Shown here piece after piece: positions 7,223 through 26,711 of a DNA stretch of 57,624 nucleotides; the stretch's first letter is position 1, and each line of letters begins with the position of its first letter. The stretch spans positions 1 through 57,624 of the IMG/VR virus record IMGVR_UViG_3300037488_002148, one strand, 5' to 3'. Source of the stretch: a virus. Position numbers and translations under genes: made by a program. The notes below the pieces were generated by a model. It saw only the letters and a program-made list of their open reading frames with translations, made no database searches and was not told the DNA's origin.

Positions 7223-9337
7223 ATGGGTCAAGTGAAAATAAATTATATAGCGAAAGAAATTTTAGCTAAACTTATTGCACAAGAAAATCTAACAATAGAA
7301 CACCGAAAAATCAAAACCGCCGGTTTCGATGTTCAAAATCGGGTTTTAATACTTCCAATATATAAGAATGTAAGCGAAAATATATACGATTTATTCATAG
7401 GCCACGAATGTTCTCACGCGCTTAATACTCCTAGTAATTTATTGGATATTATAAAGGAAAAACTTAAGGTTTGTCCAGAATATAAAACTGTCATTAATAT
7501 ATTAGAAGATGCTAGGATTGAAAAAATAATTAAAAGAAAACTGCCCGGCTTGGCTAAATCATTCTTTTATGCATACCGAGAACTGTTTCAGCAAGATTTT
7601 TTTGGTATTAATGGTAAAAATGTAGCAGATCTTCATTTATTAGATCGAATAAATTTACATTTTAAGGTTGGTATCTGCGGAAATATTAAAATAAGTTTTG
7701 ACGATAAAGAAAAATCCATTGTAGACGAACTTGCTGCGGCTGAAACGTTTGAACAAATTATCAAAATTGCAGATAAAATAGTCGATGAATATGGAGAAAC
7801 TACTAACGTTATATCCGAATCTGATTTAAATTCTGATGAAAACGTTGAACAAAAACAATCCAAAGAACAAAATGGTAATGAAAATCAAAATTTAAGTGAA
7901 CAAAATGGTGATTCGCGGGATAGTAAACAAGAGCCAGACAAAAAATGTAAAAACTCAAAAGATCAAAACCAATTGAATAAAATGGGAGAAACCTATAACA
8001 ACGAACAGAAAAATTACGAAAAATTTAAAGACGAATCTCCATCATATAATCAGATAAATGAATATGTTAACATACCAGATATAACCAAAATTCGTCTAGA
8101 TAAAGTTATCATAGATTATAAAAAAGTACATCAGAAAATTTCTAATTATTATTCAACCAAACAGGATTTGATAGCGAGTGCGAAGAGTAAATACAACGAA
8201 TTTAGAATAAAAAATTCTCCAATCATTTCATATTTGGTAAAGGAATTTGAACTTAAAAAATCAGCCGACGAATATTCAAGAATCAAAACATCTAAAACAG
8301 GATTTTTAGACACAAATAAAATACATTCTTACATGTACAGCGAAGACGTATTTCTTAAAAAAGATACTATACAGGAAGGTAAGAACCATGGTTTGGTTAT
8401 GTTTTTAGATTGTTCAGATAGTATGAATGTAAATATGGCTGATACATATGAACAGCTTTTAATTTTAGTATCATTCTGTCAAAAAATTAATATACCATTT
8501 GTAGTCTATGGGTTTGCCGATAAAAATGCTGGTTATTCTGGTTCATCCATACCAGCAAAATGTATTGCCGCTAAACAAAATGATATGGTAATAGAGGATT
8601 TCGTTTTAAAAGAATATTTTTCAAATGAGATGTCAAGTATTGAATTTAATAATGCATGTGTAAACATACAAATGCTAATCAACCAATATCGAAACGTGTC
8701 GGCTTATTCTTCATTTTATTCATATGATTTACCCGAATCTGAAAGACTTACGAGCACCCCATTAAATTCAACTATATTATGTGCGACAAAGATAGTAACA
8801 GATTTTAAAAAAACATACAATTTGCAGAAAATTACAACAATATTTTTGACAGACGGAGAAAGCAATTCATCCTATAAATACGGTGAAAATTTAGTAGTAA
8901 AAGCTCTATACAATTCTAATAATGTTGTGTTTCGTAATCCAAAAAATAAAAAAGAATATAAATCTCAAGATGAAATGTTAAAACATACCTCGTGTTTATA
9001 TAATTGTTTTCGTGATATAACATCTTCTAAAGTAGTTGGTTTTTATTTAGAAAAACATACAACAAACATCACAAGTCTATTAACAACGGTCGTAGATCAA
9101 CAAAAAATACACAAAGAAAATAAAAAAGATTTAAGCCACGTTCTAGAAAAGTGTTTTGGTTATGACCAATTATATGTTATTAACACAAAAGAACTGCATA
9201 TTAGAGATGAAGAAATTGCGTTTGACACCAAAAAAACACCAACCAGCCAGAAGATTGCAAAGATTTTTACAAAAGTTTTAAAAAATAGACTGAAAAATAG
9301 AATTATTCTATCAAAGTTTATTGAACAAATTGCTTAA
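7223..9337 (+). CDS. von Willebrand factor A protein, CobT-like
   Basis: The 704-residue protein has an HExxH motif early (HECSH, residues 61-65), an acidic, low-complexity Gln/Asn/Glu linker (about 195-270), and a C-terminal vWA domain with the MIDAS motif DCSDSMNVN (about residues 395-403) and FLTDGES (about 550). This is the layout of CobT-like vWA partners of MoxR/CobS-type AAA+ proteins, and the AAA+ gene follows at 9721. Such pairs act as metal-chelatase-like or chaperone machines. In phages their substrate is unknown. There is no SD sequence before the ATG. The early HExxH is typical of this phage family, and a peptidase activity is not established. Confidence 0.75.
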   Translation: MGQVKINYIAKEILAKLIAQENLTIEHRKIKTAGFDVQNRVLILPIYKNVSENIYDLFIGHECSHALNTPSNLLDIIKEKLKVCPEYKTVINILEDARIEKIIKRKLPGLAKSFFYAYRELFQQDFFGINGKNVADLHLLDRINLHFKVGICGNIKISFDDKEKSIVDELAAAETFEQIIKIADKIVDEYGETTNVISESDLNSDENVEQKQSKEQNGNENQNLSEQNGDSRDSKQEPDKKCKNSKDQNQLNKMGETYNNEQKNYEKFKDESPSYNQINEYVNIPDITKIRLDKVIIDYKKVHQKISNYYSTKQDLIASAKSKYNEFRIKNSPIISYLVKEFELKKSADEYSRIKTSKTGFLDTNKIHSYMYSEDVFLKKDTIQEGKNHGLVMFLDCSDSMNVNMADTYEQLLILVSFCQKINIPFVVYGFADKNAGYSGSSIPAKCIAAKQNDMVIEDFVLKEYFSNEMSSIEFNNACVNIQMLINQYRNVSAYSSFYSYDLPESERLTSTPLNSTILCATKIVTDFKKTYNLQKITTIFLTDGESNSSYKYGENLVVKALYNSNNVVFRNPKNKKEYKSQDEMLKHTSCLYNCFRDITSSKVVGFYLEKHTTNITSLLTTVVDQQKIHKENKKDLSHVLEKCFGYDQLYVINTKELHIRDEEIAFDTKKTPTSQKIAKIFTKVLKNRLKNRIILSKFIEQIA

Positions 9338-13481: not shown

Positions 13482-14462
13482 ATGATAAATCATGAAAAAG
13501 ATGACTTTTTGTGGGTCGAGCGTTACCGACCAAAGACTATACAAGATTGTATTTTACCAGAGAAATTGAAATCTATATTTTTAGGAATATTAGAGAAGGG
13601 TGATATACCAAATTTATTATTATATGGCCCAGCAGGTTCAGGAAAAACAACTGTTGCTCGTGCGCTATGCAAACAACTCGATAATGATTGTATCATATTA
13701 AATGGCTCTCTTGGTGCTGAAGAATCTGGCATCGAAGCCTTTAGAACAAGAGTTAAATCCTTCGCATCTTCCGTAAGTTTTAATGGAAATCGTAAGGTTG
13801 TTATCATTGATGAATCAGATTATCTCAATCCAAACTCTTCTCAACCAGCTTTACGTGCTCTTATAGAAGAGTTTGCTCGTAATTGTGCATTCATTTTTAC
13901 GTGTAATTATAAAAATCGCATAATAGAACCCATACATTCGAGATGTTCTGTTATAGAGTTTAAAATTGATAAGGAAGAAAAACCAAAGATAGCTACAAGT
14001 TTTCTTAAGAGAATATTTCACATTCTTGAACAGGAAGGTATCAAGTTTGATGATAAAAAGATTGTAGCGGATTTAGTAATGAAACACTTTCCAGATTTCC
14101 GTCGGTCATTAAATGAACTTCAAAGATTTACAATAGCATCTGGTGGTATTATCGACGAAGGAGTTTTAGTACAAAACGTCGACGTGGACTTAAATTTTGC
14201 AGCATTATATAAAGCATTGAAAGAAAAAAATTTCAATTCTATTAGAAAGTGGGTCGTTGAATCGTTATCAGAAGAACCTTCTAAAATATATCGTAAAATT
14301 TACGATTCTTTATATCAGAAAGTTAAACCACAGAGCATACCCCCACTAATTGTACTACTTGCTGATTATTCGTACAAATCGGCTTTTGTAGCCGATCAAG
14401 AAATCAACCTTTTAGCCTTTTTAGTTGAAATGATGGTCGATAATTCGATTGAGATGTTATAA
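13482..14462 (+). CDS. 44: Clamp loader large subunit, T4 gp44-like
   Basis: This 326-residue AAA+ ATPase has the starting WVERYRP box of clamp loaders, Walker A GPAGSGKTT at residues 49-57, Walker B VVIIDESDYL (about 107-116), sensor-1 FTCNYKNRI and the arginine-finger SRC motif near residue 155. It opens the gp45 ring together with gp62. In T4, gene 62 follows directly, but here about 2.2 kb of other genes lie between (14462-16684). It ends in a one-base TAATG overlap with the next ORF. Confidence 0.93.
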   Translation: MINHEKDDFLWVERYRPKTIQDCILPEKLKSIFLGILEKGDIPNLLLYGPAGSGKTTVARALCKQLDNDCIILNGSLGAEESGIEAFRTRVKSFASSVSFNGNRKVVIIDESDYLNPNSSQPALRALIEEFARNCAFIFTCNYKNRIIEPIHSRCSVIEFKIDKEEKPKIATSFLKRIFHILEQEGIKFDDKKIVADLVMKHFPDFRRSLNELQRFTIASGGIIDEGVLVQNVDVDLNFAALYKALKEKNFNSIRKWVVESLSEEPSKIYRKIYDSLYQKVKPQSIPPLIVLLADYSYKSAFVADQEINLLAFLVEMMVDNSIEML

Positions 14463-14662: not shown

Positions 14663-15295
14663 ATGAATATAATCAACATTAAAAAAATCATTCACTTATA
14701 TACCATTCGCCGCTGGACTCTTCGAATGATTGCAAGAAAATTTAATATAAATGGTCGTTTGATTAAACGCCGACTAATAGCGAACGGGGTTACTATTACA
14801 CGAAAAGGCCGAGTGAAAAGGGTATTTACAGAACAACACAGAAAGAACATATCCGAAGGGTGTAAAGGAAGAATTAGTTGGAACAAAAACAAAAAAATGC
14901 ATAAAAAACTTTTGTATAAAAATATGAGCGCTCATTTAAAATATAATATAAATTTGAAATGGCTTATCAAATTTGATGATATTGAAAAATTAAAGTTTTT
15001 GAATAGAGTGATATCAAGACATCGAAAATATTTCAATCGCCAACGTTATTATCATTTTATTGAAAAATTTTATAAAGATAAAATCTTTAACAAAATATAT
15101 AAAAAATGGCTTTTATCCAATCAAAATCGATGGCTTCGACCATCAATCGATCACATTAAACCCAGGTCCAGGGGTGGCGGTTTTGATATTATAAATTTAA
15201 GATTTGTCACCTGGTTCGAGAACCGTGCCAAGGCCGATATGAATTTGGAAGAGTGGGAAAATATTAAAAATGATATTGGAAATTATTTAATATGA
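14663..15295 (+). CDS. HNH homing endonuclease
   Basis: The 210-residue, very basic protein begins with a resolvase-like HTH (about residues 5-45). It then has a NUMOD3-type DNA-binding motif (TEQHRKNISEGCKGRISWNK, about 52-71) and ends with an HNH nuclease core: IDHIKPRSRGG and NLRFVTWFENRAKADM (about residues 165-195). These are the parts of free-standing phage homing endonucleases, which cut a conserved site in rival phages and spread by repair. It lies in the gap between gp44 and gp62, and its stop overlaps the start of the disrupted methyltransferase (ATGA). Confidence 0.85.
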   Translation: MNIINIKKIIHLYTIRRWTLRMIARKFNINGRLIKRRLIANGVTITRKGRVKRVFTEQHRKNISEGCKGRISWNKNKKMHKKLLYKNMSAHLKYNINLKWLIKFDDIEKLKFLNRVISRHRKYFNRQRYYHFIEKFYKDKIFNKIYKKWLLSNQNRWLRPSIDHIKPRSRGGGFDIINLRFVTWFENRAKADMNLEEWENIKNDIGNYLI

Positions 15296-18553: not shown

Positions 18554-19006
18554 ATGTTTACTTATAAAAACGATATATTTTCTGCTAAAGAATTCAATCA
18601 GATAGTTGATGATTTTTTTTGCCCGTTTATTAAATCTGAAGAATCAACCTTTCCACCCTATAATATTAAGAAAAATTCTGATAATACAGGATTTACCATT
18701 GAAATGGCTATTGCTGGTATTAAAAAGGAAGATTTGGCGATTTTGCTCGATAAAAATATATTAACAATCCGTCACAAACGAACCGATAAAGATGATAAAG
18801 AGGTGTTTATACACAAAGGAATAGCCAAAAGAGATTTTGAGCAGAGATTTCTTTTAGGTGAATATGTGCAAATCGAATTTGCCGATTTACAAAACGGAAT
18901 TCTTGTGATACAATTAAAAGTGATAATACCAGAAGATAAAAAACCGAAACAGATTGAGATTGGTTCATCTTCTGTTAAACTAGATCGTTGTCTTTTAAAT
19001 GAATAA
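18554..19006 (+). CDS. hsp20: Small heat shock protein Hsp20
   Basis: The 150-residue protein has the alpha-crystallin fold order. After FPPYNIKKN comes FTIEMAIAGIKKEDLAILLDK, then LTIRHKR, GIAKRDFEQRF and a C-terminal strand that includes NGILVIQLKVIIPE followed by a proline/lysine tail. It is an ATP-independent holdase. T4-like cyanophages carry a homologue, thought to help folding during infection. The start follows a strong SD (AAGGAG). The leader is structured, and a very stable hairpin follows the stop. Confidence 0.85.
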   Translation: MFTYKNDIFSAKEFNQIVDDFFCPFIKSEESTFPPYNIKKNSDNTGFTIEMAIAGIKKEDLAILLDKNILTIRHKRTDKDDKEVFIHKGIAKRDFEQRFLLGEYVQIEFADLQNGILVIQLKVIIPEDKKPKQIEIGSSSVKLDRCLLNE

Positions 19007-19323: not shown

Positions 19324-19439
19324 GTATCGATTTCATAACAGCCATTACTTTATTATATGTTTTTTTGAATTTGTTCATATGGGGGCTTTTCTTTTATGTG
19401 GCTTACAAGATTACGAGATATGTTTTTTGGAAAGAATAA
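19320..19439 (+). CDS. 39-residue single-span membrane peptide, holin-like
   Basis: ATG 19320 overlaps the previous stop (ATGA). The product begins MSIDFITAITLLYVFLNLFI and continues WGLFFYVAYK, then a basic end ITRYVFWKE. It is almost entirely one transmembrane segment with a positive C-terminus. TAA ends one base before the endolysin ATG. A short membrane protein directly before an endolysin is the usual place of a holin or antiholin, but 39 residues is very short for a holin, so the role is only suggested. Confidence 0.55.
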   Translation: MSIDFITAITLLYVFLNLFIWGLFFYVAYKITRYVFWKE

Positions 19440-19440
19440 A

Positions 19441-19887
19441 ATGAGAACTTCGCAAAAAGGACAAGATCTGATTAAAAATTTTGAATCTCTTCGTTTAGAA
19501 GGATATTTACCAACACCTAATGATGTTTTGACCATTGGCTACGGAAGTACCGAAATATTTGGTCGTAAAGTTAAATTAAACGAATCTATATCAATTGAAC
19601 AGGCACAAGAACAGTTTGAAAAAGATCTTTCGATTTTTGAAGATGTTATTCACAACACTGTTAAAGTACAAATAAATCAGAATCAGTTTGACGCGCTAGT
19701 TAGTTTTGTGTATAATATAGGCGGTACTAACTTTTCAAAGTCAACGCTTCTAAGATTATTAAATGAAAACAAATATGAGGAAGCCGCTGACCAGTTTCTA
19801 CGTTGGAACAAACAAGCTGGAAAAGTTTTAAATGGTTTGACTAGGCGTAGACAAGCCGAAAAAGATTTATTTTTGAATAAGGATTAA
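19441..19887 (+). CDS. Endolysin, GH24 lysozyme
   Basis: The 148-residue protein is a T4/P22-type muramidase. Residues 12-37 (KNFESLRLEGY followed by LTIGYGST) hold the catalytic Glu15 and the TIGYG strand, with Asp28 as the likely second acid. The middle has NQFDALVSFVYNIGGTNFSKSTLL, and the end GLTRRRQAEKDLFLN is typical of the family. There is no signal peptide, so it needs a holin. ATG 19441 is chosen because it aligns with family starts and directly follows the membrane peptide. An in-frame ATG at 19396 lies inside that upstream gene. Confidence 0.9.
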   Translation: MRTSQKGQDLIKNFESLRLEGYLPTPNDVLTIGYGSTEIFGRKVKLNESISIEQAQEQFEKDLSIFEDVIHNTVKVQINQNQFDALVSFVYNIGGTNFSKSTLLRLLNENKYEEAADQFLRWNKQAGKVLNGLTRRRQAEKDLFLNKD

Positions 19888-20256: not shown

Positions 20257-20571
20257 ATGAATACATACCAACAATGCAAATTAAATGACGTTTTGCATAG
20301 GTATAAAATTAATAAAACGACACTAGAAGATGGTGTTAAAGAGATACTCGAAGCTTTTAATTTACCTGTTGATAGTCTTTATAAACAGCAATACGTAGAC
20401 CAGTTCAATGATTTGACACAAGAACTGATCGAATATAAGTTCAGTTCAACGGGTAGGAATATAGATGTAACAATTGAGAAAATTGGCGATTGGTTAGACC
20501 ATAACGGTAAAACGTTTTCGCCAAGATTTGATTATAATTATGATGAAAAAGATGACAATGATTGGACCTAA
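20257..20571 (+). CDS. Hypothetical protein leading the polymerase operon
   Basis: The 104-residue product is acidic and helical, with a C-terminal YNYDEKDDNDW. It overlaps the start of the split DNA polymerase gene. No motif is recognised. Its predicted leaderless start and position at the head of the operon suggest that its translation could feed ribosomes into the polymerase gene. Confidence 0.6.
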   Translation: MNTYQQCKLNDVLHRYKINKTTLEDGVKEILEAFNLPVDSLYKQQYVDQFNDLTQELIEYKFSSTGRNIDVTIEKIGDWLDHNGKTFSPRFDYNYDEKDDNDWT

Positions 20572-22033
20572 AGAGTTTTATACAAACTGTCAAGTTTCAT
20601 ATGACCACGTTCTATATCGGGGCATTCGAAATGGCAAGCGGTTTAACGAAAAGATTTATTACAAACCGACTCTTTTTGTACCATCGAACGAAGAATCAAA
20701 ATATAAAACGATTTTTAATCAGAACGTAAAACCTATAAAGTTTGATTCAATTACAGATGCTCGCAATTTTATCGACAACTATAAAGATGTTCAAAATTTT
20801 AAAATATATGGTAATACATATTATCATTATTGTTATCTATGTAGTATGTTTTCTACTCGTGTTGAATACGATTTAAAAGATATCCGCATAGCTAATATTG
20901 ATATTGAAACTACATCTGAAAATGGATTTCCACAACCAGAAGAAGCAAACGAACAGGTTATAGCAATCAGTATTAAAATATATGATAAATTTTACGTATT
21001 TGGGAATGGAGATTATGTAACCAGTTCTTCAAATATTCATTACTTTAAATGTAAGAACGAATATGATCTTCTTAAAAAATTTATAGATTTTTGGTCTTAT
21101 GACTATCCCGACATTATAACCGGTTGGAATACGAGTCTTTTTGATATACCATATCTTGTTAATCGCATTGGAAAGGTGTGCGGTCCAGATATGGCAAAGA
21201 AACTATCTCCTTGGGGAAGGTTTTCCGAAAGAAGTATGACCCTTCATGGTAAGACGTTCAAGACATTTTCAATCGTAGGCATTGCACAGTTAGATTACTT
21301 AGAACTATATAAAAAATACGCTCCCCACAACCACCAAGAGTCTTATAAATTAGATCACATTGCCCATGTAGAATTGGGCGAACGAAAAGTTAACTATGAC
21401 GAGTATGGTTCTTTGAGAAATTTATACAAAGAGAATTTTCAAAAGTTTATTGATTATAATATACAAGACACCAATCTTGTTGATAAAATCGATCAAAAAC
21501 TTCAGTTAATTCCAATGGTCATTGAACTTGCATATGATGCCAAAGTTAATTATAATGATATATTTGGTCAAGTTCGTATGTGGGATAATATAATTTTTGA
21601 TCAACTCAAAAAGAAAAATATAGCGGTTCCTTTGACCGATGATAGTGAAAAGGATACCTCATATGAGGGGGCATATGTCAAAGATCCAATTATAGGGCTG
21701 CACAAATGGGTAGCATCGCTTGACGTAAATTCTCTTTATCCCTCACTGATTCAGATGTTTAATATTTCTCCAGAGTGTTTGATGACAAACGATAAAAGGA
21801 GTGATATAACGGTCGAATCCTTGCTCAATCGCCAGATTGATACCAGTTTTTTAAAGAACAAAAATCAAACCATGGCCGCCAATGGTTGTTTTTTTCTTAC
21901 TGACCGTATCGGAATACTACCCGAAATGATGCGAATTAAGTATAGCGAACGCAAAGAATTTAAAAATAAGATGATGCAAGCCAAAAAAGATCTTGAGTTG
22001 GTTAAAAAAGAAATTGAAAAGAGGGGGCTATGA
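20552..22033 (+). CDS. 43: DNA polymerase N-terminal part, T4 gp43-like (split gene, part A)
   Basis: About 493 residues cover the N-terminal and 3'-5' exonuclease domains and the first part of the palm of a family B polymerase. The start matches T4 KEFY. Exo I is NIDIETTS, Exo II TGWNTSLFDIPYL, and Exo III YNIQDTNLVD. Polymerase motif A, SLDVNSLYPSLIQ, lies near the end, and the chain stops in the fingers helix after RKEFKNKMMQAKKDLEL. The rest of the polymerase is encoded at 22728. The ATG is uncertain (20540, 20543, 20552 or 20558, in frame). The stop overlaps the next gene's ATG (ATGA). Confidence 0.9.
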   Translation: MTMIGPKEFYTNCQVSYDHVLYRGIRNGKRFNEKIYYKPTLFVPSNEESKYKTIFNQNVKPIKFDSITDARNFIDNYKDVQNFKIYGNTYYHYCYLCSMFSTRVEYDLKDIRIANIDIETTSENGFPQPEEANEQVIAISIKIYDKFYVFGNGDYVTSSSNIHYFKCKNEYDLLKKFIDFWSYDYPDIITGWNTSLFDIPYLVNRIGKVCGPDMAKKLSPWGRFSERSMTLHGKTFKTFSIVGIAQLDYLELYKKYAPHNHQESYKLDHIAHVELGERKVNYDEYGSLRNLYKENFQKFIDYNIQDTNLVDKIDQKLQLIPMVIELAYDAKVNYNDIFGQVRMWDNIIFDQLKKKNIAVPLTDDSEKDTSYEGAYVKDPIIGLHKWVASLDVNSLYPSLIQMFNISPECLMTNDKRSDITVESLLNRQIDTSFLKNKNQTMAANGCFFLTDRIGILPEMMRIKYSERKEFKNKMMQAKKDLELVKKEIEKRGL

Positions 22034-22734
22034 TGCAGAAAGTTATCGTGGTAATGCTGGGCCATCGTTCTTTAAGTGGCAAGGATACCAGCGCCGAGTA
22101 TCTAAAACGGTTTAGCTGGCAACGAATGGCCTTTGCTGATAAATTGAAGAGTACAGTTGCAGATCTTTATAATTTTACACGCGAACAGATGCATGGCGAC
22201 CTAAAAGATATAGAAGATCCGAGATATAAAAATACCCTAGAGGAACCATACAAGTTTGGTTACGATGAAGACAGTGGCGCAGTATTAACGTGGGTGCCAA
22301 ATGATAACTATAAACCATTCTTTACACCCAGAAGAATTTTGCAGATATTCGGTCAACAACAAAGAATGATATACCCTGATATCTGGGCACAGTATGTATT
22401 TAATCAAATAGATATACAAAGAGGGCTAAGTTCAAATCCGACTCAAGTATTTAAATATGTTATTACAGATTTTCGTTTTAAAAACGAGTTTGATGTTGCA
22501 AAACGTTGGGCGCAGACCGCCGTCGACGGCCCAGTAGAGGTTGAAAAGTCCATTTATCCTGTTAAAATCAATAGAAATGTTATTGCTAAATCTGGAAGTA
22601 ATGATATAAGTGAACACGATTTAGACAATTTTACAGAGTGGTGTGATGTCGTGGATAATAATGGCACAATTGAAGATTTGCACAACCGTTTGTTAAGTAC
22701 AGTTGCCGAATTATTGGATAAAATAAAATGTTAG
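22030..22734 (+). CDS. 1: Deoxynucleoside monophosphate kinase, T4 gp1-like
   Basis: The 234-residue protein has the variant P-loop GHRSLSGKDTSAEYL (about residues 10-24), MAFADKLK, TPRRILQIFGQQQR and a VITDFRFKNEFD segment. These are the landmarks of T4 gp1-type dNMP kinases that make dNDPs for DNA synthesis. It sits between the two halves of DNA polymerase, with its ATG overlapping the stop of part A and its stop overlapping the ATG of part B. It therefore looks like a stable part of the operon. Start 22030 or 22033 (ATGATG). Confidence 0.85.
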   Translation: MMQKVIVVMLGHRSLSGKDTSAEYLKRFSWQRMAFADKLKSTVADLYNFTREQMHGDLKDIEDPRYKNTLEEPYKFGYDEDSGAVLTWVPNDNYKPFFTPRRILQIFGQQQRMIYPDIWAQYVFNQIDIQRGLSSNPTQVFKYVITDFRFKNEFDVAKRWAQTAVDGPVEVEKSIYPVKINRNVIAKSGSNDISEHDLDNFTEWCDVVDNNGTIEDLHNRLLSTVAELLDKIKC

Positions 22735-23834
22735 ACCTATCTACACTATCAAACGATCAACTGTTGCAGTATCAACAACAGTTAGAATATGATATTTCAA
22801 AATATAATAATACTCAATTGGCTAAAAAGGTTCAACTGAATTCAGCATATGGCGTGTGTGGCAACCAATTTTTTCGTTGGTATGATATACGTTTAGCAGA
22901 GGCTGTAACAAAGTCGGGTCAATTGGTTATACGGTGGTTAGAGTCGTATATTAATGAATATTTTAATAAAACTTTAAAAACTAATACAGATTATGTAATC
23001 GCTAGTGACACAGACTCTTTAATTGTTACATTAGAGAAACTAGTCGACAAATGTATACCAATAGATAAACAGCAGAACGTTGACAAGGTTATAGATTTTA
23101 TGAATAAGGTTTGTGAAGATGTTTTACAACCAGTAATCAATACTTCTTGTAACGATCTAGCCGAATATTTAAGCGTTAAAGCTCAAACGATTGTAATGAA
23201 ACGCGAAATTTTAGCAGACCGTGTTATTTGGGTAACAAAAAAACGTTATGTTATGAGCGTTCGCGATAACGAAGATGTTCGTTTGAAAGATCCAGAATTA
23301 AAGATTATGGGCATTGAAGCCATACGTACAAGTACACCAACTATATGTAGAGAAAAAATCAAACAAGCGTTGAAGATTATTTTACACGGAACTGAAATGG
23401 AACTACAAACCTTTGTCGAAGACTTTGAAAAAATTTTTAACACATTCAAAATTGAAGATATTGCATTCCCAAGAACCGTTAATGGGTTAAAAAAATACCA
23501 TTGCGATATTAATACGTTTATTAAAGGTACGCCTATACATGTAAGAGGTTCTTTGCTTTATAATAGTTGTCTAAAGATTAAAAATGTTAGTAAAAAATAT
23601 GAAACTATTAAAGAGGGAGAGAAGATCAAGTTCATATATTTAAAAGAGCCAAATATGATACAGGATACTGTAATAGCCTTTCCAGATATTCTACCGAAAG
23701 AATTTGAATTAAATGCGTTTATTGACTATAAAACACAGTTTGAGAAGACATTTGTCGAACCTTTAAGTTTAATTTTGAATATAGTTGGCTGGAAGCCGCG
23801 AACTGAAAAGAATCTTAGTGCATTTTTTAATTGA
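22728..23834 (+). CDS. 43: DNA polymerase C-terminal part, T4 gp43-like (split gene, part B)
   Basis: The 368 residues continue the polymerase from the second half of the fingers. A helix including DISKYNNTQLAKKV leads into motif B, QLNSAYGVCGN. Motif C, ASDTDSL, comes next, then KKRYVMSV and KIMGIEAIRTSTP of the thumb. The C-terminus (EKNLSAFFN) has the position and character of a clamp-binding peptide. With part A at 20552 it makes a full-length polymerase with all catalytic aspartates (motif A and motif C). The two chains must associate. The ATG overlaps the dNMP kinase stop. Confidence 0.92.
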   Translation: MLDLSTLSNDQLLQYQQQLEYDISKYNNTQLAKKVQLNSAYGVCGNQFFRWYDIRLAEAVTKSGQLVIRWLESYINEYFNKTLKTNTDYVIASDTDSLIVTLEKLVDKCIPIDKQQNVDKVIDFMNKVCEDVLQPVINTSCNDLAEYLSVKAQTIVMKREILADRVIWVTKKRYVMSVRDNEDVRLKDPELKIMGIEAIRTSTPTICREKIKQALKIILHGTEMELQTFVEDFEKIFNTFKIEDIAFPRTVNGLKKYHCDINTFIKGTPIHVRGSLLYNSCLKIKNVSKKYETIKEGEKIKFIYLKEPNMIQDTVIAFPDILPKEFELNAFIDYKTQFEKTFVEPLSLILNIVGWKPRTEKNLSAFFN

Positions 23835-23876: not shown

Positions 23877-24920
23877 ATGAATAACATTTTAAAAGGCTTG
23901 ATTGAAGCAAGCGGAAATGATTTAGCAACAATTGTATCTGATGGTGTTTCGACGGGCGATTTTGCGACATATATTGATACAGGTTCATATATTCTAAATG
24001 CCCTGTTATCTGGTTCTATTTTTGGTGGAGCTGCCGATAACAAAATAACAGCATTTGCGGGTGAACAAAGTGTAGGTAAAACATTTTTCGTATTAAATGT
24101 TGTTAAAAGTTTTCTTGAAAAGGATAAAAACTCTGGGGTTGTATATTTTGAATCGGAATCGGCTCTAACAAAAGATATCATACAAAGTCGTGGTATCGAT
24201 ACAACAAGAATGGTTGTTGTTCCAGTTGCTACAGTGCAAGAATTTCGACATCAAGCATTAAAAATTTTAGACAAATATATTGAAACACCTGAAACAGATA
24301 GACCCAGACTGATGTTATGCCTAGACTCATTAGGAAACCTATCAACCACTAAAGAAATTGAAGATTCGACTGAAGGAAAAGAAACCCAGGACATGACCCG
24401 TTCGCGGCTAATTAAAGGAGTTTTTCGGGTATTGACCTTGAAATTAGCCAAAGCCAAGGTGCCGCTTTTTCTTACAAACCATACGTATCTCCAGGTAGGA
24501 ACAATGTTTCCGCAACAAATCATGGGCGGCGGTTCTGGGCTACAATACGCTGCCTCGACTGTTATTTTCTTATCCAAAAGAAAAGAAAAAGACGGCGATG
24601 AAGTTATTGGAAATATTATTCATTGTAAAAATGTTAAGAACAGATTTGTTAAAGAAAATAAGATCGTTGATACACTTTTAACATATGATAAAGGTTTAAA
24701 TCGTTATTATGGTTTAGTAGATTTGGCTTTACAAGCAGGTCTATTTCAAAAAAATACGACCCGTATAGAATTACCAGATGGCTCTAAGATTTTTGAAAAA
24801 CAGATTAATAATGAACCAGAGAAATACTTTACACAAGAAATTCTTGAAAAGCTTGATGAATATGCTAAAAAGACTTTTTTATACGGTCAAATTTCAACCG
24901 AAACGACTTTAAAAGAATAA
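23877..24920 (+). CDS. uvsX: Recombinase UvsX (RecA-like)
   Basis: The 347-residue protein is the phage strand-exchange ATPase. Walker [11 protein letters not shown] is at residues 61-70, a catalytic Glu region VVYFESES follows, and Walker [12 protein letters not shown] is near residue 145. Downstream come the L1/L2 loop regions, including LFLTNHTY, and [13 protein letters not shown]. It forms filaments on gp32-coated ssDNA for recombination-dependent replication. It lies between DNA polymerase and gp41 as in the core module of T4-like phages. Confidence 0.93.
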
Positions 24921-24942: not shown

Positions 24943-25272
24943 ATGACAACAAAAGAAAAATATACTGTGATTAAACCTCGGCGAAAGCGGAAAAGTAAAA
25001 CTCCAACTATTCGTTTTCATTTGACAGAAATGAGTAATTTTCCGGGAGTGATTGTAGAATTTCAATCTGTAAAAATGCTCGAAGCGCCTAAAGAAGATGG
25101 TTATAACTGTGAAGTTAATTATAATATTATTAAAGTTCCAAAGGGCAAATTCCAAAACATGGAAGATGCTGTTAAAGAACAGTTTGATAATACAATACGC
25201 GAAGTGCTTATAGACTTGTTAAAAGATGCGGTAAAAGAAGCCCCAGAAATTCAGACGTTAGATAAGCAATAA
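24943..25272 (+). CDS. Hypothetical protein between uvsX and gp41
   Basis: The 109-residue product has a strongly basic start (KPRRKRKSKTPTIRFHLTE) and an acidic helical second half. It occupies the place of gene 40 in T4, but I see no clear similarity. Its stop overlaps the gp41 start by one base. A helper role in replication is possible from position alone. Confidence 0.6.
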   Translation: MTTKEKYTVIKPRRKRKSKTPTIRFHLTEMSNFPGVIVEFQSVKMLEAPKEDGYNCEVNYNIIKVPKGKFQNMEDAVKEQFDNTIREVLIDLLKDAVKEAPEIQTLDKQ

Positions 25273-26711
25273 TGAAAGATCGAATAGAGACTTTGATTTT
25301 ATATAGTCTCATTAAGAATGAGACTTATACCCGAAAAGTATTACCTTTTTTAAAGGAAGAATACTTCTCCGAGAAAATTGAAAGACTCTTGTTCAATACT
25401 ATATCAGAATTTGTTAGTAAATATAATGCATTGCCTACAACGGAAGCTCTTTTAATTAGTATTAATAGCAGCACTCAAATCAAAGAACATGAATATAAAG
25501 ATATTGGCGATTATATTCAAAAAGAATTTAATAATGATGTGGTTTTTCCGGAAGAAAAATGGCTTTTGGATAAAACTGAAGAGTGGTGCAAATATCAAGC
25601 TTTGAGAAATGCTATATTAAATTCTATTAATATTATAGATGATCCAGCATCAAAAATCCAAACGGGGTCAATTCCCAAACTTTTGACTGATGCGCTATCG
25701 GTGGGATTTTCAACAGACATCGGGCACGATTACGTCAACGATTCAGAAAAACGATATGGTTTCTATCACATGATAGAACAAAAGTTAGAGTTCGATCTTG
25801 ATTTGTTTAATAAAATTACCGGTGGTGGAGTTAAAAAGAAGAGCTTGTTTGTTATAGTTGCGGGCACAGGCGCTGGAAAAAGTTTAAGTTTAAGCCATTT
25901 TGCCGCATCGTTTCTTAATCAAAATAAAAACGTGCTTTATATTACATTAGAAATGGCCGAGGAACAGATCGCAAAACGCATTGATGCAAATTTATTAAAT
26001 GTATCGATGATCGATTTAGATAAAATTCCTAAACAAGACTATGACAAGCGCATCGAACGGATGAAACACAAAGCAACTGGTCGATTGATTATCAAAGAAT
26101 ATCCCACTGCATCCGCGCATACAGGGCATTTTCGGGTTCTACTTCAAGAGTTGCATCTAAAGAAAAATTTCAAACCAGATGTTGTGATAGTCGACTATCT
26201 AAATATCGCCGCTAGTTCAAGAATTAAGCCCGGTTCATTGGTTAATAGTTATACCTACATTAAGAGTATTGCAGAAGAACTTCGGGGTCTAGCAATGGAG
26301 TTCGACGTTCCTTGCCTTACAGCCACACAGACTAACCGCCAAGGTCAAGCCAATACAGACTTAGATTTCACAGATGTTTCTGAATCCCACGGTCTTTCTG
26401 CAACGTGTGATTATATGGTTGGTATGGTTTCTACTGAAGAACTAGATAAAATGAATCAGGTTCTGTTTAAGCAGATTAAAAATCGGTATGGTGATATATC
26501 AAAATATAGACGATTTGTTGTGGGCATTGATCGAGACAAAATGCGATTATACGACGTAGAACAGTCTGCACAGAAAGACATTGCCGATTCTGGACAAGAA
26601 CCCGGTGAAGATCCGATAGGGTTTGACAAAACAGCATTCGGAAATCGTATGAACCAGAACAAGGATTTTTCAAAAATCAAATTCGATGACGATTCAGATG
26701 ATATGTTTTAG
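25272..26711 (+). CDS. 41: Replicative DNA helicase, T4 gp41-like
   Basis: The 479-residue protein is a DnaB-family hexameric helicase. It has an N-terminal helical domain, a linker, and a RecA-like core with FNKITGGGVKKKSLFVIVA leading into Walker A AGTGAGKS (197-204). Walker B VVIVDYLNI (about 310-318) and CLTATQTNRQG follow. It unwinds DNA at the fork with primase gp61 (43835) and is loaded by gp59 (54655). The C-terminal tail is acidic and ends DDDSDDMF. Confidence 0.94.
   Translation: MKDRIETLILYSLIKNETYTRKVLPFLKEEYFSEKIERLLFNTISEFVSKYNALPTTEALLISINSSTQIKEHEYKDIGDYIQKEFNNDVVFPEEKWLLDKTEEWCKYQALRNAILNSINIIDDPASKIQTGSIPKLLTDALSVGFSTDIGHDYVNDSEKRYGFYHMIEQKLEFDLDLFNKITGGGVKKKSLFVIVAGTGAGKSLSLSHFAASFLNQNKNVLYITLEMAEEQIAKRIDANLLNVSMIDLDKIPKQDYDKRIERMKHKATGRLIIKEYPTASAHTGHFRVLLQELHLKKNFKPDVVIVDYLNIAASSRIKPGSLVNSYTYIKSIAEELRGLAMEFDVPCLTATQTNRQGQANTDLDFTDVSESHGLSATCDYMVGMVSTEELDKMNQVLFKQIKNRYGDISKYRRFVVGIDRDKMRLYDVEQSAQKDIADSGQEPGEDPIGFDKTAFGNRMNQNKDFSKIKFDDDSDDMF

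Follow-up and report, generated by a model that had tools for sequence, protein, structure and literature searches.

A T4-type DNA polymerase gene split at the fingers tip around a dNMP kinase gene, and a probable insertion slot in related phages

Layout of the split polymerase locus

The window, that is, the whole stretch of DNA analysed here, is 57,624 nucleotides of a viral genome (positions 1 to 57,624 of IMG/VR record IMGVR_UViG_3300037488_002148). Its replication gene cluster encodes DNA polymerase gp43 in two ORFs, 43A and 43B, with a third ORF between them. The genes and junctions of this region are as follows.

13482 to 14462, plus strand: gp44-type clamp loader gene
18554 to 19006, plus strand: Hsp20 gene
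20552 to 22033, plus strand: gene 43A, N-terminal part of gp43, 493 aa (exonuclease, palm motif A with D391, first fingers helix with R467 and K471)
22030 to 22033, plus strand: ATGA overlap (4 nt) of the 43A stop and the kinase start
22030 to 22734, plus strand: dNMP kinase gene, T4 gp1 family, 234 aa, P-loop GHRSLSGKD
22728 to 22734, plus strand: ATGTTAG overlap (7 nt) of the kinase stop and the 43B start
22728 to 23834, plus strand: gene 43B, C-terminal part of gp43, 368 aa (second fingers helix, motifs B and C, thumb)
23877 to 24920, plus strand: uvsX recombinase gene, next downstream of 43B
25272 to 26711, plus strand: gp41-type replicative helicase gene

The start codon of 43A is the ATG at 20552 or the one at 20558, and a purine-rich stretch, AAAAGAGGGGGC, lies directly 5' of the overlap between 43A and the kinase gene. 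ATGA-type overlaps had been predicted on both sides of the kinase gene; the 43A side has one, but the junction with 43B is of the longer ATGTTAG kind. The cyanophage records examined likewise have an Hsp20 gene upstream of gene 43. Just past the clamp loader gene, a 210-aa ORF (14663 to 15295) matches a PHROG endonuclease VII/HNH family (2.6e-7), and an endolysin-like ORF (19396 to 19887; PHROG 7, 8.7e-55) sits within the replication gene cluster.

Gene 43A matches PHROG 262 and 2062, both 'DNA polymerase' (2e-164 and 1e-148), together with the Pfam exonuclease and DNA_pol_B families, and 43B matches PHROG 262 and 1918 (1e-129 and 1e-122). On PHROG 262, 43A covers positions 7-498 and 43B covers positions 500-852. 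These profile matches confirm 43A and 43B as the N- and C-terminal parts of one T4-type family-B polymerase. For residue mapping, both were aligned to the same chain of RB69 gp43 and residues were numbered by hand. The exonuclease residues D114, E116, D222, and D327 of RB69 correspond to D117, E119, D198, and D306 of 43A, motif A D411 corresponds to D391, and the fingers residues R482 and K486 correspond to R467 and K471. Likewise, motif B (K560, N564, and Y567 in RB69) is found in 43B as K34, N38, and Y41, and motif C (D621 and D623) as D94 and D96 of a DTD at 94-96. The exonuclease domain and motifs A, B, and C are thus present with their catalytic acidic residues, and the catalytic and dNTP-binding residues are divided between the two chains with none missing. 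The original prediction of a gp43 split in the fingers, with all catalytic residues kept and a dNMP kinase gene in between, is borne out by the ORFs, the PHROG and Pfam matches, and the RB69 mapping.

The polymerase is cut at the fingers tip, where one long fingers helix gives way to the other. The C-terminus of 43A, EIEKRGL, lies at this tip, and 43B begins with an N-terminal arm, MLDLSTLSNDQLL. Because the break is at the tip, the first fingers helix also belongs to 43A; the prediction that the cut falls between motifs A and B was correct, but 43A continues past motif A. In a junction alignment, the window, cyanophages S-CREM2, S-N03, S-H34, and ACG-2014f, and Aeromonas phage 44RR are all cut at one place, with 43A ending in RG(L/V) or a few residues beyond and 43B starting with a similar LS-containing arm. 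Both chain ends at the break bear extra helix-like arms, and the span from the fingers R to the motif-B K has a median of 60 residues in split polymerases (38 measured) versus 41 in contiguous ones (56 measured). The C-terminal tail of 43B, NLSAFFN, may serve in clamp binding.

The middle ORF, present once in the window, matches PHROG 139, deoxynucleoside monophosphate kinase (5e-36), and its Pfam DNMK match stays below the cut-off (score 21.2 of 27.1). A profile built from 20 kinase relatives matched T4 dNMP kinase 1DEK over its whole length (E 5.9e-21). Furthermore, the AlphaFold model (pLDDT 92.4) found 1dek_A as its best solved match in Foldseek (TM 0.60, 18% identity). By profile, predicted fold, and a P-loop with SGKD, the ORF is assigned as a T4 gp1-type dNMP kinase, and it would phosphorylate dNMPs. 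It resembles T4 gp1 (1DEK/1DEL) also in a conserved D/R/E motif beside the P-loop; it differs in its low identity in the Foldseek alignment and in being encoded between the halves of gene 43.

The same cut in related phages

Split gene 43 has a precedent in Aeromonas T4-like phages, as the original prediction stated. In phages 25 and 44RR (Petrov, Ratnayaka and Karam 2010, by way of PMC2988022), the same polymerase is divided at the same fingers-tip site. The 43A of 44RR ends in SRGVKLDH, and its 43B carries an LSTDEL arm similar to that of the window. PMC2988022 reports that 43A and 43B of phage 25 co-purify and are active, and places an untranslated spacer between the halves in 44RR (49 nt as measured here) and a seg homing endonuclease in phage 25, whereas the window has a metabolic gene there. 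The Aeromonas polymerases are on a tree branch distant from the window. Cyanophages S-CREM2, S-N03, S-H34, and ACG-2014f have the same site with ATGA after 43A, but their gaps hold one or two small ORFs of unassigned function (PHROG 703, 3571, 3538, or none) instead of a kinase. No discussion of a split gp43 was found in the available part of the S-CREM2 paper.

How widespread is the split? By script calls, 251 loci carry both halves; 183 are contiguous and 68 are split, of which 49 are distinct. This is not a natural frequency, because similarity searches with the window and its relatives supplied the loci, which are a non-random sample; the gap ORFs were likewise called by script, and several splits are known from single metagenomic contigs. 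Split gp43 occurs in isolates, namely cyanophages S-CREM2, S-N03, S-H34, MC09, and ACG-2014f and Aeromonas phage 44RR. That the split is peculiar to this phage is rejected by the 49 distinct split loci. In the MC09 record (L017, PP110486.1, Synechococcus phage), product names are apparently shifted by one gene, with an 81-aa ORF named 'DNA polymerase' and 43A named hypothetical. GTDB genome contigs yielded one relative only, which is contiguous (L366). Found in a Methanohalobium MAG, this contig carries a T4-type polymerase gene whose product is 48% identical to 43B; it is probably a misbinned phage.

The arrangement with a kinase gene is itself conserved. A search for other phages with the same split and inserted gene, as the original prediction proposed, found both in L025, a divergent 13.5-kb IMG/VR contig with the order 43A, kinase, 85-aa ORF, 43B, and found the same 43A with the start of the kinase gene in L037. 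Identity of L025 to the window is 56% for 43A, 64% for 43B, and 43% for the kinase. Its junction letters match those of the window (ATGA after 43A and ATGTTAG before 43B), and ATGTTAG is kept even though the 85-aa ORF, not the kinase gene, precedes 43B. The remaining kinase loci from this search have no 43A or 43B match nearby; therefore, the kinase and the split do not generally travel together. Between 43B and uvsX, L025 has a 393-aa ORF (8008 to 9189) whose C-terminal part looks GIY-YIG-like by eye, with no Pfam or PHROG match.

The contents of the gap vary widely. A dNMP kinase gene occupies it in the window and L025, a dCMP deaminase gene in nine loci, and an IMP dehydrogenase/GMP reductase gene in L096. 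Endonuclease-like contents comprise an HNH endonuclease in L107, with a homologue in L111, and a GIY-YIG-like family of ~200 aa in five loci, whose L322 member matches PHROG 681 endonuclease (2e-6) and whose L111 member has no match. Other gaps hold a 500-aa DGQHR/GmrSD-like protein (three loci, with a weak Pfam match in one), a 2OG-Fe(II) oxygenase (four loci), a HAD/phosphomannomutase-like protein (L315), a GXM-like protein (L158-160), or a metallophosphoesterase together with a tRNA (L111). A protein of ~90 aa recurs in ten loci (L258, L259, L267, L268, L270, L275, L278, L279, L281, and L291) and its predicted fold is a barrel of Sm/LSm type, with 3by7 as the best solved match (Foldseek E 1.7e-3, TM 0.72). 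Six representative split loci carry no cargo, and their 43A and 43B overlap by 8-14 nt. In 19 of the 36 cargo-bearing split loci, the overlap between 43A and the cargo is exactly 4 nt.

Some loci are unusual in themselves. The longest and most varied slot, in L111 (3586 to 5991), contains a GIY-YIG-like ORF, dCMP deaminase, tRNA, an HNH-like ORF, and metallophosphoesterase. An HTH plus DUF559/Vsr-like ORF of 254-259 aa lies between the halves in L145 (5116 to 5971) and L171 (1505 to 2360). In these two, 43B resumes only just before motif B, which may reflect either an intron or a damaged head, and there was no Rfam intron match. Gene 43 is also cut at another position, directly following motif A, by a GIY-YIG-like ORF of 173-180 aa in L214 (2824 to 3637) and L120 (4.9-5.8 kb). 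The 180-aa ORF of L214 is a recent insertion because the relatives L179, L182, and L185 are contiguous and >91% identical. In a check for a possible mobile cassette with docking arms, the heads of the motif-A-site insert in L120 and L214 resembled those at the fingers site, with a score as high in 1 and 3 of 2000 shuffles, and the tails did not.

A tree of 43 fingers-tip split and 77 contiguous representative polymerases, made by quick search with SH-aLRT support only, has at least 10 changes between the split and contiguous states, 9 of them forced by starred branches. A single origin of all splits may be hard to square with these changes. The window and L025 are sisters (support 100) in an all-split clade of 14 (support 99). 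The slots of this clade hold dNMP kinase (two members), dCMP deaminase (nine), IMP dehydrogenase/GMP reductase (one), HNH only (one), and DGQHR only (one). Since all 14 are split and have five kinds of slot content, the cut there predates at least some of the cargo. Contiguous and split forms adjoin elsewhere on the tree (contiguous L113 beside L140, split with no cargo; L159 beside L151), which argues that the two states are interchangeable, with both directions possible.

A probable standing insertion slot and its alternatives

The reading that probably accounts best for these observations is that gp43 works as two chains, the fingers-tip gap is a standing insertion slot, and the kinase gene is retained cargo. 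Relatives cut at the same tip with different genes suggest that the cut is a recurring landing site rather than a one-off. Chain A would contribute the exonuclease, motif A of the palm, and the fingers helix that bears the triphosphate-binding R and K; the second fingers helix with its motif B, together with motif C and the thumb, would come from chain B. By analogy with 43A and 43B of phage 25, the chains may refold together without covalent joining via the fingers arms and the palm. The gap would be a tolerated place for co-transcribed, translationally coupled genes, with endonuclease-like genes, metabolic genes, and small ORFs entering and leaving it in T4-related phages. The ATGA overlap with 43A, frequent among cargo, would couple translation. 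The lineage of the window would have kept a gp1-type kinase for dNMP phosphorylation, probably co-produced with the polymerase. Endonucleases may open or refill the slot; endonuclease-like genes in the slots of several relatives make homing a plausible source, and an endonuclease origin of the cut is not required because six split loci have no cargo. The endonuclease-type insertion at another gene 43 site in L214 also favors a slot. However, a content-neutral slot does not predict that 12 of the 14 clade members hold a nucleotide-precursor enzyme, from three unrelated families. This bias, observed post hoc, is suggestive of a link of some kind and is compatible with co-expression; it does not show a polymerase-kinase complex.

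An unlikely but not far-fetched alternative is that the gap is an ordinary junction of an early replication operon, holding precursor genes because co-transcription with gene 43 is useful, with no special slot and no mobile elements. The cargo-free splits and the lack of an endonuclease-like gene in the slot of the window would fit such a junction, as would the overlaps, since ATGA overlaps are frequent in phage operons. It does not sit well with the strong turnover of content within one clade, nor with the recurrence of endonuclease-like genes in the slot (HNH in two loci, GIY-YIG-like in five, one with its PHROG match).

It is improbable that the kinase gene was placed between 43A and 43B for its function, either co-assembly with the polymerase or local dNTP feeding. 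This would explain why the arrangement is kept in two divergent phages with coupled junctions, and the prevalence of nucleotide-precursor enzymes in the clade points the same way. However, that enrichment was noticed after the fact, and the dCMP deaminase may be one acquisition. Furthermore, the kinase is less conserved than either polymerase part, and nucleotide-precursor enzymes of both kinds occur away from gene 43 in contiguous relatives. The prediction that the kinase is positioned for co-assembly is unsupported as such: elsewhere the slot holds LSm-like, 2OG oxygenase, endonuclease-like, HAD, or small ORFs or nothing, and in a related phage with contiguous gp43, a dNMP kinase match lies ~15 kb away from the polymerase gene. 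A complex of polymerase and kinase is conceivable yet unsupported. Still less probable is that the gap itself was selected, with the added arms of 43A and 43B docking dNMP kinase, dCMP deaminase, or LSm-like proteins as exchangeable third subunits, which would modulate the replicase or channel precursors to it.

That the halves are joined after all, by a split intein, a group I intron, or a frameshift, or that the split is a sequencing fault, is scarcely credible. Gene 43 does contain introns in Aeromonas phage 25 and JSE (PMC2993671), and split inteins are known from fractured genes (Dassa 2009, as cited in PMC10448857). However, the window has no Rfam intron match at gathering or relaxed thresholds, the sole weak Rfam match being a CRISPR repeat inside the kinase gene, far below the cut-off; a group I intron was rejected on this ground. 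A split intein was rejected as well, because the end of 43A and the start of 43B are both only a few residues from the conserved junction, with no extra sequence or domain, leaving no room for intein halves. The original prediction had named an intron or intein joining the halves as evidence against it; neither was found in the window, and a contiguous gene 43 was found only in relatives. Chance or an assembly fault was rejected because L025 shows the arrangement independently, with L037 having 43A and the kinase start, and the split recurs in independent contigs and isolates.

What the split means for T4-related phages

The window is a variant of the already known split gene 43. As in NrdA of Aeh1 with mobE (PMC2988022) and the split-intein loci of Dassa 2009 (cited in PMC10448857), an essential replication gene is divided into two parts that flank another gene. 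Unlike fractured or HEG-split genes, the window has no intein and no endonuclease in the slot, and its interval holds only the kinase gene, a metabolic cargo. HEGs cluster near phage polymerase genes (PMC10448857), and these islands of T5orf172/HNH-type genes have unstable content, as the slot does; here, however, the changeable site lies within the polymerase gene itself, and genes other than endonucleases enter it too. No description of a fingers-tip gene slot was found in the open-access literature searched, which is weak evidence as most subscription papers lay outside the search.

In the literature consulted, split gene 43 is confined to Aeromonas phages, with an endonuclease or a spacer at the cut. 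With a probable standing slot at the fingers tip, the same cut now extends across marine and other uncultured T4-related phages, in which the cargo varies and the cut stays. The finding warns that split polymerases are readily missed or mislabelled in annotation, and natural two-chain family-B polymerases with recognisable arms would be useful split-enzyme parts. It also makes testable how a break in an essential enzyme gets fixed, and whether the fixed break then serves as a safe, strongly expressed site for genes.
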